A stretch of DNA of 64,000 bases. It comes from Sulfitobacter sp. BSw21498 (GTDB lineage: Bacteria > Pseudomonadota > Alphaproteobacteria > Rhodobacterales > Rhodobacteraceae). This document shows, one piece after another, positions 32,861 to 38,722 of the stretch. The number at the start of each line of letters is the position of its first letter. The stretch's first letter is position 1. The translations under genes and the position numbers were made by a program. The notes under the pieces are model-generated. The model ran no database searches. It worked only from the letters and a program-made list of their open reading frames with translations, and was not told the DNA's origin. Where the stretch lies: contig NZ_CP040753.1 of the NCBI RefSeq assembly GCF_006064855.1, forward strand, positions 1,488,001 to 1,552,000, in the 5' to 3' direction.

Positions 32861-34810
32861 ATGGCCCAGATCACCCTCACCCTTCCCGATGGCAACGCAC
32901 GTCAGTACGACGCAGGTATCACTGCGGGCGACGTCGCGAACGACATCTCCAAATCGCTTGGCAAAAAAGCGATCAGCGCCACCGTGGACGGTGCGCATTT
33001 TGATCTGGCCTGGCCGATCAACGCAGATGCCGACATCGCGATCCACACCATGGCTGACGAAGCACAAGCGAACGAGCTGGTACGCCACGACCTTGCCCAC
33101 ATCATGGCCCGCGCCGTGCAGGACCTGTGGCCAGATACAAAAGTCACCATCGGCCCCGTCATCAAAGACGGCTGGTACTATGATTTCGACCGCAAGGAAT
33201 CTTTCACCCCCGAAGACCTTGGCCTCATCGAAAAGAAGATGAAGGAAATCATCAACAAGCGTGACCCCGTGCGCACCGAAGTCTGGGACCGCGCCCGCGC
33301 GATCAAGCATTACGAAGACCTGAACGAACCCTATAAGGTCGAGCTGATCAACAGCATTCCCGGCGACGAGCCGCTGCGCATGTACTGGCACGGCGACTGG
33401 CAGGACCTCTGCCGTGGCCCGCACCTGCAACACACCGGCCAAGTCCCCGGCGACGCGTTCAAACTGATGTCGATTGCGGGCGCTTACTGGCGCGGCGACA
33501 GCGACCGCGCGATGCTGCAACGGATTTACGGCGTGGCCTTCACCGGCAAAGAAAAGCTGAAAGCGCACCTGAACATGCTCGAAGAGGCCGCCAAACGCGA
33601 CCACCGCAAGCTGGGCCGCGAGATGGACCTGTTCCACATGCAAGAAGAAGCGCCGGGCCAGATCTTCTGGCACCCCAACGGCTGGCACATCTATACCGAG
33701 CTTCAGGACTACATGCGCCGCAAACAACGCGCCGGCGGCTATGTCGAGGTGAACACACCGCAGGTCGTGGACCGTAAACTCTGGGAAGCCTCCGGCCACT
33801 GGGAGAAATACCAAGACCACATGTTCATCGTCGAAGTGGACGAGGAACACGCCCGCGAAAAATCGGTCAACGCGCTGAAACCGATGAACTGCCCCTGCCA
33901 CGTGCAAATCTTTAACCAAGGTTTGAAATCCTACCGCGACCTGCCCCTGCGCATGGCCGAATTCGGGTCCTGCAACCGCTATGAACCCTCGGGCGCGCTG
34001 CACGGCATCATGCGGGTGCGCGGCTTTACCCAGGACGACGGCCACATCTTCTGCGCCGAAGACCAGATCGAAGCCGAAACCGCGAAATTCATCGAATTCC
34101 TGTCGGGCATCTACAAAGACCTCGGGTTCGAAAACTTCAGCGTCAAATTCTCGGACAGGCCTGAAAAACGCGCCGGCTCGGATGAAGTCTGGGACAAGGC
34201 CGAGGCCGCGTTGCTCTCTGCCACCCGCGCGGCTGGCATCGAACCAACGCTCAACCCCGGCGAAGGCGCGTTCTATGGTCCGAAACTGGAATTTGTGCTG
34301 ACCGATGCCATTGGCCGCGACTGGCAATGTGGCACCCATCAGGTGGATTTTGTGCTGCCAGAACGGCTTGATGCGACCTATATCGGATCGGATGGCGCGA
34401 AACACCGCCCCGTCATGCTGCACCGCGCGACATTGGGATCGTTCGAACGTTTCATCGGCATCCTGATCGAAGAACACGCAGGCAAGCTGCCCTTCTGGCT
34501 GGCCCCGCGTCAGGTTGTCGTGGCCGCCATCACCTCAGAGGCCGATGACTACGTCCACGAGGTCGTCGCCACTCTTAAGGCACAAGGCGTCCGCGCCGAG
34601 GCGGATGTCCGCAACGAAAAGATCAACTACAAGGTCCGTGAACATTCGGTTGGCAAAGTGCCGGTGATCCTTGCCGTTGGCGGCCGTGAGGTCGAAGAGA
34701 AAACCGTTTCGGTGCGTCGTCTGGGCGAAAAGCAAACCTCCGTTCAGGCGCTATCGGACGTGGCAGATGCGCTTGGCATCGAAGCCACACCGCCCGATCT
34801 GCGCGGCTGA
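32861..34810 (+). CDS. thrS: threonine--tRNA ligase
   Basis: A 649-residue class II aminoacyl-tRNA synthetase. It has a TGS domain (residues 1-60), then the SAD editing domain with [12 protein letters not shown] (about 69; zinc-like HxxxH), the catalytic core with LKPMNCPCH (Cys zinc ligand), [16 protein letters not shown] (motif 2), and [18 protein letters not shown] (motif 3). The C-terminal anticodon-binding domain is after about 540. Length is normal. GAGGAGG precedes the ATG. No T-box leader is seen. Confidence 0.98.
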
Positions 34811-34827
34811 AACCTGTAACAAACCTC

Positions 34828-34854
34828 TCGGGGCGCAATCATCTTGCGCCCCGA
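34828..34854 (+). terminator. hairpin downstream of thrS
   Basis: A perfect 11-bp stem TCGGGGCGCAA / TTGCGCCCCGA with a 5-base loop, 17 bp after the thrS stop. No T-run follows, so it may be a weak or factor-dependent terminator. Confidence 0.6.
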
Positions 34855-35028
34855 AGATGTCACTATGTTTCAATATTTCGCCCCCCAGAGGGTAATCGCG
34901 CGAATTGTTACAAAAAAACCGGCGATTTCCTGACGCCCGCGTGACACACTGCGATGTGAGTAGATTTGTCGCACCCGCCTGGCTTTAATGGCTGTATCGA
35001 CACGCAACCCAATCAGGAGGAAACATCA

Positions 35029-35331
35029 ATGTCCAACACGATGAAAACGCTCGCCGTTGCCGGCGCTGTCGCCGCAGCCATGTCCGCACATGCCACCACA
35101 GCAAGCGCGGCATCCAAGGAAAAATGCTACGGCGTGGCGCTTGCCGGTCAGAATGATTGCGCAGCAGGCCCCGGCACCACATGCGCCGGCACATCCGTCA
35201 CCGATTACCAGGGCAACGCCTGGACGCTGGTTGACGCAGGCACCTGCGCAGAGATGGAGCTGCCCGAAATGACCGACGGCTCCGCACGTATGGGCTCGCT
35301 CGAAGCGCTGGACCGCGACATGCCAGCCTAA
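35029..35331 (+). CDS. bufA: bufferin precursor (DUF2282), metal-stress RiPP
   Basis: A 100-residue exported peptide. It has a Sec signal peptide at residues about 1-28 (cut near ASA-ASK), then a core with four Cys (33, 44, 52, 73) in the DUF2282 pattern [21 protein letters not shown] and DAGTC. The tail is acidic. In characterised systems the DUF692 enzyme modifies these cysteines, and the product binds copper in the periplasm. AGGAGG precedes ATG 35029. It heads the bufABCD operon. A strong hairpin follows, which fits making more precursor than enzyme. Confidence 0.9.
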
Positions 35332-35355
35332 GGCCCCTTGCGGCTTAAACCCCTC

Positions 35356-35389
35356 GCCTGTGCAGCACGGAGCATCCGGCTGCGCAGGC
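35356..35389 (+). promoter_or_regulatory. intercistronic hairpin between bufA and bufB
   Basis: GCCTGTGCAGC (35356-35366) pairs with GCTGCGCAGGC (35379-35389) with one G-U pair, and an inner CGGA/TCCG extends the stem. No T-run follows. It probably protects the bufA 3' end or causes partial termination, raising the ratio of precursor to modifying enzyme. Confidence 0.65.
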
Positions 35390-35422
35390 CCCTTACGCGA
35401 CCCCTCGGATAGGGAGCCTCCC

Positions 35423-36271
35423 ATGCCAGACGGAACCGCCCGTTTTGCCACCTTGCCCGCCAGTCCGGGCGTAGGATATAAACCCCAGCATTTCAAAGAC
35501 CTGCAAGACGATCCTGGTCCGGTAGAATGGGTCGAAATCCATGCAGAGAATTACATGGGCGACGGCGGCCGCCCCCTTGCGCAGCTGCGCGCGCTGTCCG
35601 AAAAATTCGCCCTGTCGGTTCACGGTGTCGGCCTCAGCATCGGTGGCGAAATGCCACTGGATCGTGACCATCTGGCCCGTCTGAAAAAGCTGTGTGACGG
35701 GGCAAAGCCCGCCAGTTTTTCCGAACATCTGGCCTGGTCCACCCATGACAGCGAGTTTCTGAACGACCTGCTGCCCCTCCCCTATACGGAATCCACCCTG
35801 TCCCGCGTAGCTGACCATATCAAACAGGTTCAGGACACAATCGGGCGTCAAATGCTGCTGGAAAATCCCTCCAGCTACCTCGCCTTTGATGAATCCACCT
35901 TGTCTGAATGCGACTTTTTATCAGAAGTTACCCACCGAACATCCTGCGGTCTATTGCTGGATGTCAACAATGTGTTCATTTCGGCCCAAAACCTTGGTCT
36001 CGCGCCCCGCGACTACATCGACGCCTATCCGGTTGACGCCGTGGGCGAGCTTCACGTCGGCGGCCACGAAGAAGACAGCGTTGGGTTCAACCAGCCGCTT
36101 TTGATCGACAGCCACAGTCGCCCCGTTGTCGATCCCGTCTGGGATTTGCTGGCCTATACGCTGGATCGCACGGGCCCCAAGCCGGTGCTGGTGGAATGGG
36201 ACAACGACGTGCCCGACTGGCCCACCCTGCGCGCAGAGGCCGTGCGGGCCGCAGATGTGTTGGCGCGATGA
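35423..36271 (+). CDS. bufB: DUF692 multinuclear iron oxidase (MNIO), bufferin-modifying enzyme
   Basis: A 282-residue TIM-barrel enzyme of the DUF692/MNIO family (as MbnB and TglH). Likely iron ligands are visible: His40 and Asn43 (IHAENY), His67 (SVHGVGLSIGG), His102 (SEHLAW), Glu147/Asn148 (LENPSSY), Asp180 (LLLDVNN), His211 and His215 (HVGGHEED), and Glu258/Asp260 (VEWDND). It oxidises peptide cysteines, here most likely those of the BufA peptide. AGGGAG precedes ATG 35423; the stop overlaps bufC (ATGA). Confidence 0.92.
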   Translation: MPDGTARFATLPASPGVGYKPQHFKDLQDDPGPVEWVEIHAENYMGDGGRPLAQLRALSEKFALSVHGVGLSIGGEMPLDRDHLARLKKLCDGAKPASFSEHLAWSTHDSEFLNDLLPLPYTESTLSRVADHIKQVQDTIGRQMLLENPSSYLAFDESTLSECDFLSEVTHRTSCGLLLDVNNVFISAQNLGLAPRDYIDAYPVDAVGELHVGGHEEDSVGFNQPLLIDSHSRPVVDPVWDLLAYTLDRTGPKPVLVEWDNDVPDWPTLRAEAVRAADVLAR

Positions 36272-37017
36272 CCACGCTTCGCCGATTTCGCGCGCCCTTA
36301 CTCGACCCGACACAGGACCGCCCTGAAGGGCTGCGCGGTGCCGCTGGCGCACCGGCGGACACGCGCTATGACGTCTACCGTAACAACGTGACCCATTCCT
36401 TAATTGCAGCACTGCACAGCGCTTTTCCCTTGGTGCTCAAAGTATTAGGCACGCAGAATTTCGACCGGTTGGCCCCTGGCTACGTCCGTGCGCACCCGCC
36501 GAGCTCTCCGTTGATGATGCATTATGGCGCTGATTTTCCTGACTTTCTCGCCGCACAACCGCAATTGTCAAAAATGGGCTACCTGCCCGACTGCGCCCGC
36601 CTCGACCTTGCCCTGCGCCGATCCTACCACGCAGCCGACAGTGCGCCCTTTGATCTCGAAACGTTCCAGCAGCTTACGCCAGAAGAGATGATGCAAACAC
36701 AGCTCATCCCCGCCCCTGCGACGGTTTTGCTGCGGTCAAGCTGGCCGCTTTTCGATATCTGGCGGTTCAACATGCAGGCCGATGCCCCCAAGCCGCAAAT
36801 GCTGGCCCAAGACGTGTTGATAACCCGCCCCGAGTTTGACCCCGCCCCGCATCTGTTGCCCCCCGGCGGCGGCAATTGGTTCGCCGCATTGGCCGAAGGC
36901 GCAACACTCGACCAGGCCCATGACACCACGCTGGCGCTCGTGCCTGATTTCGATCTTGGTGCGGCCTTAGGGCTGTGCTTTGCAACTGGCGCATTTTGCG
37001 CAAAGAACGGCGGATAA
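36268..37017 (+). CDS. bufC: DUF2063 protein, bufferin partner
   Basis: A 249-residue protein of the DUF2063 family. It has the N-terminal RYDVYRNNVTHSLIAALHSAFPLVLKVLG block, then FPDFLAAQPQL and a WRFNMQAD region. Such proteins bind the precursor peptide and present it to the DUF692 enzyme. The start overlaps bufB by ATGA, and bufD starts 2 bp after its stop. This coupling supports a complex with BufB. Confidence 0.88.
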   Translation: MTTLRRFRAPLLDPTQDRPEGLRGAAGAPADTRYDVYRNNVTHSLIAALHSAFPLVLKVLGTQNFDRLAPGYVRAHPPSSPLMMHYGADFPDFLAAQPQLSKMGYLPDCARLDLALRRSYHAADSAPFDLETFQQLTPEEMMQTQLIPAPATVLLRSSWPLFDIWRFNMQADAPKPQMLAQDVLITRPEFDPAPHLLPPGGGNWFAALAEGATLDQAHDTTLALVPDFDLGAALGLCFATGAFCAKNGG

Positions 37018-37018
37018 G

Positions 37019-37549
37019 ATGCTGAAGACCCTCACCCTTTATGACCGCGCCACCCACTGGATTTCAGCGCAGGACTGGCTGCTGCCGACGCTTGCACGGT
37101 TTCTATTTGCTGCTGTACTGATGCAATATTTCTTTGCCTCTGGCCTCACCAAACTCGACGGGTTGGTGACGCTGAGCACCGGTGCCTATGTCCAGATTTT
37201 CCCCCGCGCGTTCGAGGCGGCAGGCTATGACGCGACAGCGCTTTCGCCGCTGCACGGGCTGGTGGCCTATGCGGGGACGATGGCGGAATTTGTGCTGCCG
37301 GCGTTGATCGTGGTGGGGCTGTTCACGCGGCTTGCGGCCTTGGGGATGGTGGGGTTTGTAGTCCTGCAATCGCTCACGGATCTTTACGGTCACCAACAAT
37401 GGAGCGCGCTTGGCCAGTGGTTTGACCGCCTGCCGGACGGGACCATTCTGGACCAGCGCGCGCTTTGGGTGCTGTTGTTGGTGGTGCTGGTGGTCAAGGG
37501 CGGCGGGCCGGTGGCGCTGGACCGTATTTTGCTGGCGCGCCGCCGCTGA
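37019..37549 (+). CDS. bufD: DoxX-family membrane protein of the bufferin operon
   Basis: A 176-residue inner-membrane protein with about four hydrophobic helices (about residues 20-40, 72-92, 97-118, 143-163). The DoxX pattern FASGLTKLDGLVTLS and the GLFTRLAALGMVGFV block are present. DoxX proteins often close bufferin/gig operons; the role is unknown (redox or membrane partner of the modified peptide). ATG 37019 follows the bufC stop by 1 base. It ends 3 bp from the convergent arsC-like gene. Confidence 0.85.
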   Translation: MLKTLTLYDRATHWISAQDWLLPTLARFLFAAVLMQYFFASGLTKLDGLVTLSTGAYVQIFPRAFEAAGYDATALSPLHGLVAYAGTMAEFVLPALIVVGLFTRLAALGMVGFVVLQSLTDLYGHQQWSALGQWFDRLPDGTILDQRALWVLLLVVLVVKGGGPVALDRILLARRR

Positions 37550-37552
37550 GCA

Positions 37553-37873
37553 TTACTGCGCGGCTTTGACCTCGGCTTGGGTCGTGTCATTCCAGCCGAG
37601 GAAAAGATCCTCCCCCGCGGCGATCAGCGGGCGTTTCATCAACGCGGGATGGGCGACCAAAAGTTCAAGCGGATCGGAGGCGCGTTCGGCATCGTCCAGA
37701 CCACGCCATGTGGTGGAACGCGTGTTCACCAGTGCTGCGCCAAAGCGGGCATGAGCGCGGGCCAGCACCTCGGCGGGGACACCGTCTTGGCGGACATCGA
37801 CCAGCTGCGCGTCGGGCAGCGCCTTGATCGCCTTGCGGCAGGTATCGCAGTTTTTCAGACCGTAGATCAGCAT
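37553..37873 (-). CDS. ArsC/Spx-type thioredoxin-fold protein
   Basis: A 106-residue protein of the ArsC family with the active-site CDTCRKA near residue 9. LVNTRSTTWRGL and ALMKRPLIA (about 80, the anion-site block) are also present. It could be an arsenate reductase or an Spx-like regulator; bacterial proteins of this length (YffB-type) are often neither. It is convergent with bufD with no room for a terminator. Confidence 0.8.
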   Translation of the reverse strand: MLIYGLKNCDTCRKAIKALPDAQLVDVRQDGVPAEVLARAHARFGAALVNTRSTTWRGLDDAERASDPLELLVAHPALMKRPLIAAGEDLFLGWNDTTQAEVKAAQ

Positions 37874-38298: not shown

Positions 38299-38592
38299 TT
38301 AGCGGCAGCCCTTTTCGCCCGGCACGCACGCATAGCTGGCGCGGCGCGGGTGATAGTGGCGGACCTTGTGCTTTTTCGGCGCGGGGTGCGACATCATCTG
38401 CTGATAGCTGGTGGCCGTGTTCGGCGTGCCGCAGCAGATCACGCCGGAGATCGTGACCGGCTGAAGCCCTACGGGGCAGAAGTTGGCGGAGGACGGATAG
38501 GCGTAGATATTGGGCTCTGCCGAGACCTGCGCGGGCAGCAAAACTGCGCCCATCAAACCCAATCCGGCGATCATTCCTGTTGTCAGACGCAT
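38299..38592 (-). CDS. exported Cys-containing hypothetical protein
   Basis: A 97-residue protein with a Sec signal peptide at about residues 1-25 (MRLTTGMIAGLGLMGAVLLPAQ, cut near VSA-EP). The mature part has four Cys (NFCPV, VICCG, YACVP/GC near the end) and a His/Lys/Arg-rich stretch (HPAPKKHKVRHYHPRR), which might bind metal or nucleic acid. I do not recognise a family. ATG 38592 has a GGGGGA site; ATG 38613 is less likely. Confidence 0.65.
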   Translation of the reverse strand: MRLTTGMIAGLGLMGAVLLPAQVSAEPNIYAYPSSANFCPVGLQPVTISGVICCGTPNTATSYQQMMSHPAPKKHKVRHYHPRRASYACVPGEKGCR

Positions 38593-38722
38593 CGTATCCC
38601 CCGTTCTTTTCAATTCCCTTTAATTTGCCCAGACTAAAGCGCCAAGTCTAGCTTTTTCGCCTTTTGGGGCTGGAGGCTGGCGGGATTGGCGGGGCGGGAT
38701 TTGCGCCGCCGTCGGGACTCGG

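Follow-up and report, generated by a model that had tools for sequence, protein, structure and literature searches.

Among the closest known systems is the Buf1 operon of Caulobacter (CCNA_03363-03366), which matches the locus examined here in its four gene families and in their order and encodes an exported four-cysteine precursor, an MNIO enzyme, a DUF2063 partner, and a DoxX protein (passages on this operon in PMC12452194, PMC3511200, and PMC8224329). The Caulobacter operon is driven by the ECF sigma factor SigF, which NrsF holds in check, and is induced by copper (PMC3511200 and PMC8224329); a sigF mutant is copper sensitive (PMC8224329), and genes for a sigma factor and NrsF are named as parts of Buf1 clusters in PMC12452194. 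The characterised Buf1 peptide binds copper and aids growth under excess copper, and the gig operons are counted among the bufferin clusters (both from PMC12452194). The gig operons of Cupriavidus and Legionella are of the same operon type, and the response to gold and copper is a property described for them (PMC5413113). The EGKCG captophorins (fontiphorin and the HvfA oxazolin) have an MNIO enzyme and a DUF2063 partner in common with this locus; cysteine-derived 5-thiooxazoles and copper binding are counted as further likenesses, these being only predicted for the peptide described here (PMC13097082).

The window, a stretch of 64,000 nucleotides (positions 1,488,001 to 1,552,000) from the 3.24-Mb genome of Sulfitobacter sp. 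BSw21498, carries a four-gene operon on the + strand with the following features.

32861-34810, thrS, upstream neighbour of the operon
35015-35020, + strand, AGGAGG, ribosome binding site of bufA as read from the sequence
35029-35331, + strand, bufA, 100 amino acids; PF10048 (DUF2282), 85.8 bits against a cutoff of 22.4, 2e-24
35423-36271, + strand, bufB, MNIO maturase, 282 amino acids counted from ATG; MbnB_TglH_ChrH, 7e-102
36268-37017, + strand, bufC, partner protein; PF09836 (DUF2063), 82.7 bits against 27.2, 2e-23
37019-37549, + strand, bufD, membrane protein; PF07681 (DoxX), 37.7 bits against 23.6, 3e-9
37553-37873, ArsC-family gene, convergent, downstream neighbour of the operon

The Pfam matches of all four buf genes exceeded the gathering score. 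There is a 4-bp overlap between bufB and bufC and a 1-bp gap between bufC and bufD, with a wider gap (91 bp) present only behind bufA. Using tblastn, matches to bufA, bufB, bufC, and bufD were detected in the same order in all of the best 80 loci by BufB similarity, and the arrangement is thus more than chance. Of these 80 loci, 77 also contain thrS and 76 contain the arsC-like gene; the three without thrS include L026 and L065, both of which are cut by contig ends. In 67 of 78 cases, with the window counted, thrS and bufA were no more than 282 nt apart. Within the family, bufA was found in 106 of 149 genomes, and in a sample of the class it was found in 65 of 190. The BufB tree placed a BufB from a same-genus genome nearest to that of the window, and protein similarity put the operon close to Sulfitobacter and Shimia. 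Judged from these sequence comparisons, the operon is a further and, for the family, ordinary member of the Buf1 bufferins; positions, four families, BufB cutoff, and gene order all agreed with the original prediction of a bufferin (gig-type) four-gene operon. Two other proteins were observed in this neighbourhood. A 104-amino-acid protein with a leader-like start, several cysteines, and a His/Lys-rich stretch is encoded at 38299-38613 (- strand); it matched no Pfam family and does not resemble BufA. In many relatives a 122-amino-acid membrane protein lies between bufD and the arsC-like gene (for example, L056 8665-9033, - strand) and had no Pfam match; only about 10 nt separate these genes in the window.

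BufB passed the NCBI BufB model NF050167 (361.1 bits; cutoff of 310) and failed the HvfB-type model NF003818 (233.9 bits; cutoff of 360), and its relatives in the PDB were 3bww, TglH, and MbnB. Residues H67, H102, E147, N148, D180, H211, D229, H231, E258, and D260 were identical in all aligned rows (among related rows with a residue there, 197 of 197 or 198 of 198). On the strength of the MNIO family, we take these His, Asp, Glu, and Asn residues to be putative metal (iron) ligands, and the invariance of all ten positions is in keeping with the DUF692 enzyme with a full ligand set that had been predicted. BufC and BufD matched Hvf models below the cutoffs of those models, as seen for BufC with the HvfC model (36 bits; cutoff of 142). 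The RRE-type domain expected in the partner protein of a Buf1 operon was not confirmed for BufC: a single-sequence search detected no relative of BufC among solved structures, and the BufC profile reached TglI only at an E value of 0.62. In contrast to the EGKCG captophorins, the window operon has a DUF2282 precursor without EGKCG repeats and a BufB that lies below the HvfB cutoff. In one locus (L162 5627-6535, genome G100), the bufB matches were split over two adjoining reading frames, so that the gene looks interrupted.

The precursor, BufA, has cysteines at positions 33, 44, 52, and 73 that were invariant in 16 aligned sequences. Inspection indicated a hydrophobic leader, and Ala25-x-Ala27 was invariant in the same 16 sequences. 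These observations support export of BufA via Sec with a leader extending to about Ala27, as expected for the exported signal-peptide precursor that had been proposed. Some homologues among the best 120 of 8,000 candidates scored are named BufA1 bufferin-type metallophores at their source, and BufA itself had no NCBIfam match and no relative among solved structures in a single-sequence search. The product of the operon is very probably an exported copper-buffering peptide. A mass change on all four cysteines had been anticipated, but this is not supported by the Buf1 legend in PMC12452194, according to which only the central cysteines of the characterised peptide are modified and a disulphide joins the two outer ones. 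Hence Cys44 and Cys52, rather than all four, are the predicted targets of modification, with a predicted Cys33-Cys73 disulphide. Each thiooxazole accounts for a change of -4 Da in fontiphorin, and an absorbance maximum near 305 nm is given for several thiooxazole peptides, including bufferins (PMC13097082). The BufA tail was considered as a signal for recognition by BufC; PMC12452194 names the signal peptide in this role, on the basis of preliminary results.

The proposal of a roseobacter-specific tail was partly right. The ending RD[LIMV]P was present in 94 of 107 family sequences and in none of 16 from outside the family (66 of 70 sequences from loci with the upstream box described below, 8 of 14 from SigF loci, and 20 of 23 others), but the GSL core ahead of it also occurred in several sequences outside the family. 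Compared to the Caulobacter Buf1 operon, the window has a longer BufA tail, which ends in RDMPA, and has linked thrS and arsC-like genes. Variation in bufA content was observed in some loci. Two copies stand in tandem before bufB in L071, L099, and L162, and a DUF2282 protein with only two cysteines was found in L184 (genome G130), with no bufB found adjoining and with NrsF elsewhere in the genome.

The second difference from the Caulobacter operon lies in the control region, as the window genome has a tandem box instead of NrsF and a SigF-type promoter. The elements of this region and of the bufA-bufB gap are as follows.

34930-34961, + strand, proposed operator (tandem palindromic box), located 68-99 nt ahead of the start codon of bufA
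34984-34989, + strand, TTTAAT, -10-like element of a proposed sigma70-type promoter; in 61 loci aligned on the box, TANNNT is over-represented at this distance
35356-35390, + strand, GC-rich hairpin in the bufA-bufB gap, with an 11-pair stem in the window

The box spans 32 nt (TNACR-N4-YGTGA-N-NCACR-N4-YGTGA) and consists of two 14-bp palindromes 15 bp apart; the window copy is the sole zero-mismatch site in its own genome. A profile over 80 upstream regions scored above 15 in the window and in 76 of the 79 loci scanned (the best 80 by BufB similarity minus L065, which has no upstream DNA). Among the three misses, L071 has a box before the first of its two bufA copies, L078 has sigF and nrsF beside bufA, and L068 has no such explanation. 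At the same threshold of 15, the box was detected in 69 of 105 family bufA loci (104 plus the window), although the profile was built on the best-80 loci and some of these may be species that are also in the family set. The maximum score of the reversed profile was 3.6 in 121 family and class loci.

Searches of whole genomes indicated how closely the box is tied to the operon. With up to one mismatch, 61 matches were found in 59 of the 149 family genomes, and the reversed pattern gave zero. Fifty-nine matches (57 genomes) lay within 300 nt upstream of the bufA domain, and a sixtieth, in G063, was also at the bufferin operon. In the 190 class genomes there were five matches, of which three were same-family, one was at bufA in G151, and one was inside a reading frame in G209; since the reversed control gave four, the box is at background outside the family, except perhaps in G151. 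In the window's own genome, up to three mismatches yielded 10 matches, compared to 6 for the reversed pattern. Other own-genome sites were rejected: five of the seven that were read lie inside reading frames of more than 250 codons, one (L087), which neighbours a TetR-type gene, was judged by eye to fall within a small reading frame, and one (L093), which overlaps only short frames, was not kept. The box is thus conserved and nearly unique to the front of the bufferin operon. Two loci were observed to depart from the usual arrangement. G063 (L135 5303-5334) has a weak box before bufA and a stronger second box between bufA and bufB, after a hairpin that by eye resembles a terminator, an arrangement that would suit a separate promoter for bufBCD. 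The remaining one-mismatch match, in G112 (L214 4368-5032), scored 31.7 about 70 to 100 nt before a YkuD L,D-transpeptidase gene, with no bufA match in that genome. When 30 of the related loci, taken from the matches in 137 genomes, were scored, only G112 exceeded 15 and the next score was 9.5, so that the site is no more than a lead.

CusR/CopR copper boxes have the form TGAC-N6-GTCA. The palindromes examined here have a similar layout (TSAC-N6-GTSA), a likeness to the consensus that is a lead only, and the window box differs in having other letters and two tandem copies. No description of such a box was found in the literature searched, in which subscription journals were thinly covered, and the words promoter, regulator, terminator, and hairpin each occur zero times in the main text of PMC12452194. 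Hence, the operon is of a known type and its control region is a variant not found described.

The distribution of SigF and NrsF was the converse of that of the box. No match to NrsF was detected in the window's own genome by a search that detected the Caulobacter positive control, and in the window the 220 nt ahead of bufA lacked the promoter motif GTAAC-N16..18-CGWA. The 69 box loci were all free of sigF-like and nrsF genes, and none of their genomes had an NrsF above cutoff; one box genome, G129, had a sub-cutoff NrsF match with two internal stops (20.6 bits; cutoff of 26.8). Of the 36 family loci without a box above threshold, 17 had such genes, either beside bufA (n = 14) or as NrsF elsewhere in the genome (n = 3). 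The other 19 of the 105 had neither a box above threshold nor SigF/NrsF, some scoring just below threshold. The promoter motif was found in 11 of the 14 loci with adjoining sigF or nrsF, in 1 of the 3 with NrsF elsewhere, and in none of the 69 box loci (220 nt ahead of bufA) or of the 19 others.

Allowing spacers of 15 to 18, 17 SigF-type promoters were found in family and class loci. Ten of these (9 of 12 from the family and 1 of 5 from outside it) have a palindrome that agrees with TCAC-N6-GTGA in 7 or 8 of 8 letters and lies 4 to 6 nt before the -35 element; letter shuffling gives an expectation of 0.045. With a single copy beside the SigF -35 element, the same palindrome seems to serve both promoter types. 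L102 is an intermediate arrangement: it lacks a tandem box and carries thrS, nrsF, sigF, bufABCD, and arsC one after another. Ten SigF loci formed one clade in the BufB tree (SH-aLRT of 100), with L102 and L188 sitting among box loci on unstarred forks. Independent comparisons of box and SigF loci amounted to one well-supported pair, or five when all branches were counted, and the mutual exclusion is therefore a pattern of few events. The idea that a GTTAC upstream of the box is left over from a SigF promoter in divergent orientation was rejected, as GTTAC occurred in 9 of 69 box loci, the same as in shuffles (0.13).

Alignment of 61 loci on the box (score above 20) detected T and A at positions 56 and 57 (57 and 64 percent) and T at position 61 (70 percent). 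This -10-like element places the -35 element directly behind the second palindrome; in the window, the latter is a weak TAGATT at a 17-nt spacing. A strict consensus scan found no sigma70 promoter upstream of bufA, a result compatible with, but not proof of, a weak promoter that depends on an activator. For the bufA-bufB gap, a stem of at least 9 pairs, with one mismatch allowed, was found in 73 of 76 gaps of 40 to 130 nt from the best-80 loci or the window, compared to 76 of 375 gaps after shuffling and 10 of 80 stretches from within bufB. The energy z-score was below -2 in 51 of 75 gaps, with a median of -2.7 and a window value of -2.7. This hairpin likely keeps the level of the precursor message above that of the enzyme message. 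A 12-pair GC-rich stem was also observed between thrS and the box (34827-34855) and is terminator-like on the - strand only.

No regulator gene was found next to the operon at the window locus, and none was seen by eye beside the operon in eight loci where it is relocated or odd. The CopR-type model TIGR01387 was not informative (0 of 149 family genomes above its cutoff and 112 below it at 1e-50). How the box acts was considered in light of the promoter evidence. Control by SigF and NrsF is the characterised mode in Caulobacter (PMC3511200 and PMC8224329), and 14 of 105 family loci have one of these genes beside bufA, but the lack of an NrsF match in the window genome and of the promoter motif here and in the 69 box loci makes this mode very improbable for the window. 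It is similarly hard to credit that the palindromes act as RNA hairpins in a long 5' leader: they can fold and lie about 100 nt ahead of bufA, but conservation follows the letters and not the pairing (at position 3, 57 of 80 sequences have a G, which breaks the pair), the -10-like element is downstream of the box, and there was no Rfam match. Palindromes are often bound by dimeric repressors, and as the box abuts the putative -35 element, a repressor could cover this region and leave under copper or redox stress. The weak TAGATT suits an activated promoter and the palindrome 4 to 6 nt before the SigF -35 element suits a helper site; neither point is decisive, and a repressor site is doubtful but deserves consideration.

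The reading that we consider probable is that of a Buf1 bufferin with thiooxazoles at Cys44 and Cys52 that binds copper and is expressed from a box-activated sigma70-type promoter without SigF/NrsF. Gene families, conserved cysteines and putative ligands, the lack of an NrsF match, the box, and the hairpin are seen in the sequence, and a sequence of events can be proposed around them. A putative DNA-binding protein on the tandem palindrome would activate the weak promoter just downstream, and the hairpin behind bufA would hold precursor mRNA above enzyme mRNA. A BufB-BufC complex would bind BufA in the cytoplasm and convert Cys44 and Cys52 to thiooxazoles. BufA would then be exported by Sec and cleaved near Ala27, with formation of the Cys33-Cys73 disulphide, and the mature peptide may bind excess periplasmic copper, with DoxX (BufD) as a presumed accessory membrane protein. 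A main role in another stress (gold, other metals, or oxidants), with copper secondary, would accord with the response of gig operons to gold and copper (PMC5413113), with the response of Caulobacter SigF genes to chromate and cadmium (PMC3511200), and with the roles beyond copper discussed in PMC12452194; however, the characterised Buf1 binds copper and supports growth in excess copper (PMC12452194) and the sigF mutant is copper sensitive (PMC8224329), and such a role is unlikely. Sulfitobacter DUF692 genes are expressed in marine biofilms according to PMC11278168, which contains neither "copper" nor "bufferin."

With copper buffering by a Buf1 peptide as the favoured reading, the box suggests rewired control of the same peptide. 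We tentatively suggest, as a possibility short of a probable one, that a factor dedicated almost wholly to one operon replaced SigF/NrsF in the thrS-linked roseobacters, that a single palindrome helped the SigF promoter of the ancestor, and that, as SigF/NrsF was lost, the palindrome was doubled and a sigma70-type promoter came into use. If this is true, the dedicated protein that binds the box would represent a new sensor of metals or redox state. Occurring about once per genome before the bufferin operon, the box would offer a ready DNA bait for the regulator in these abundant marine bacteria.
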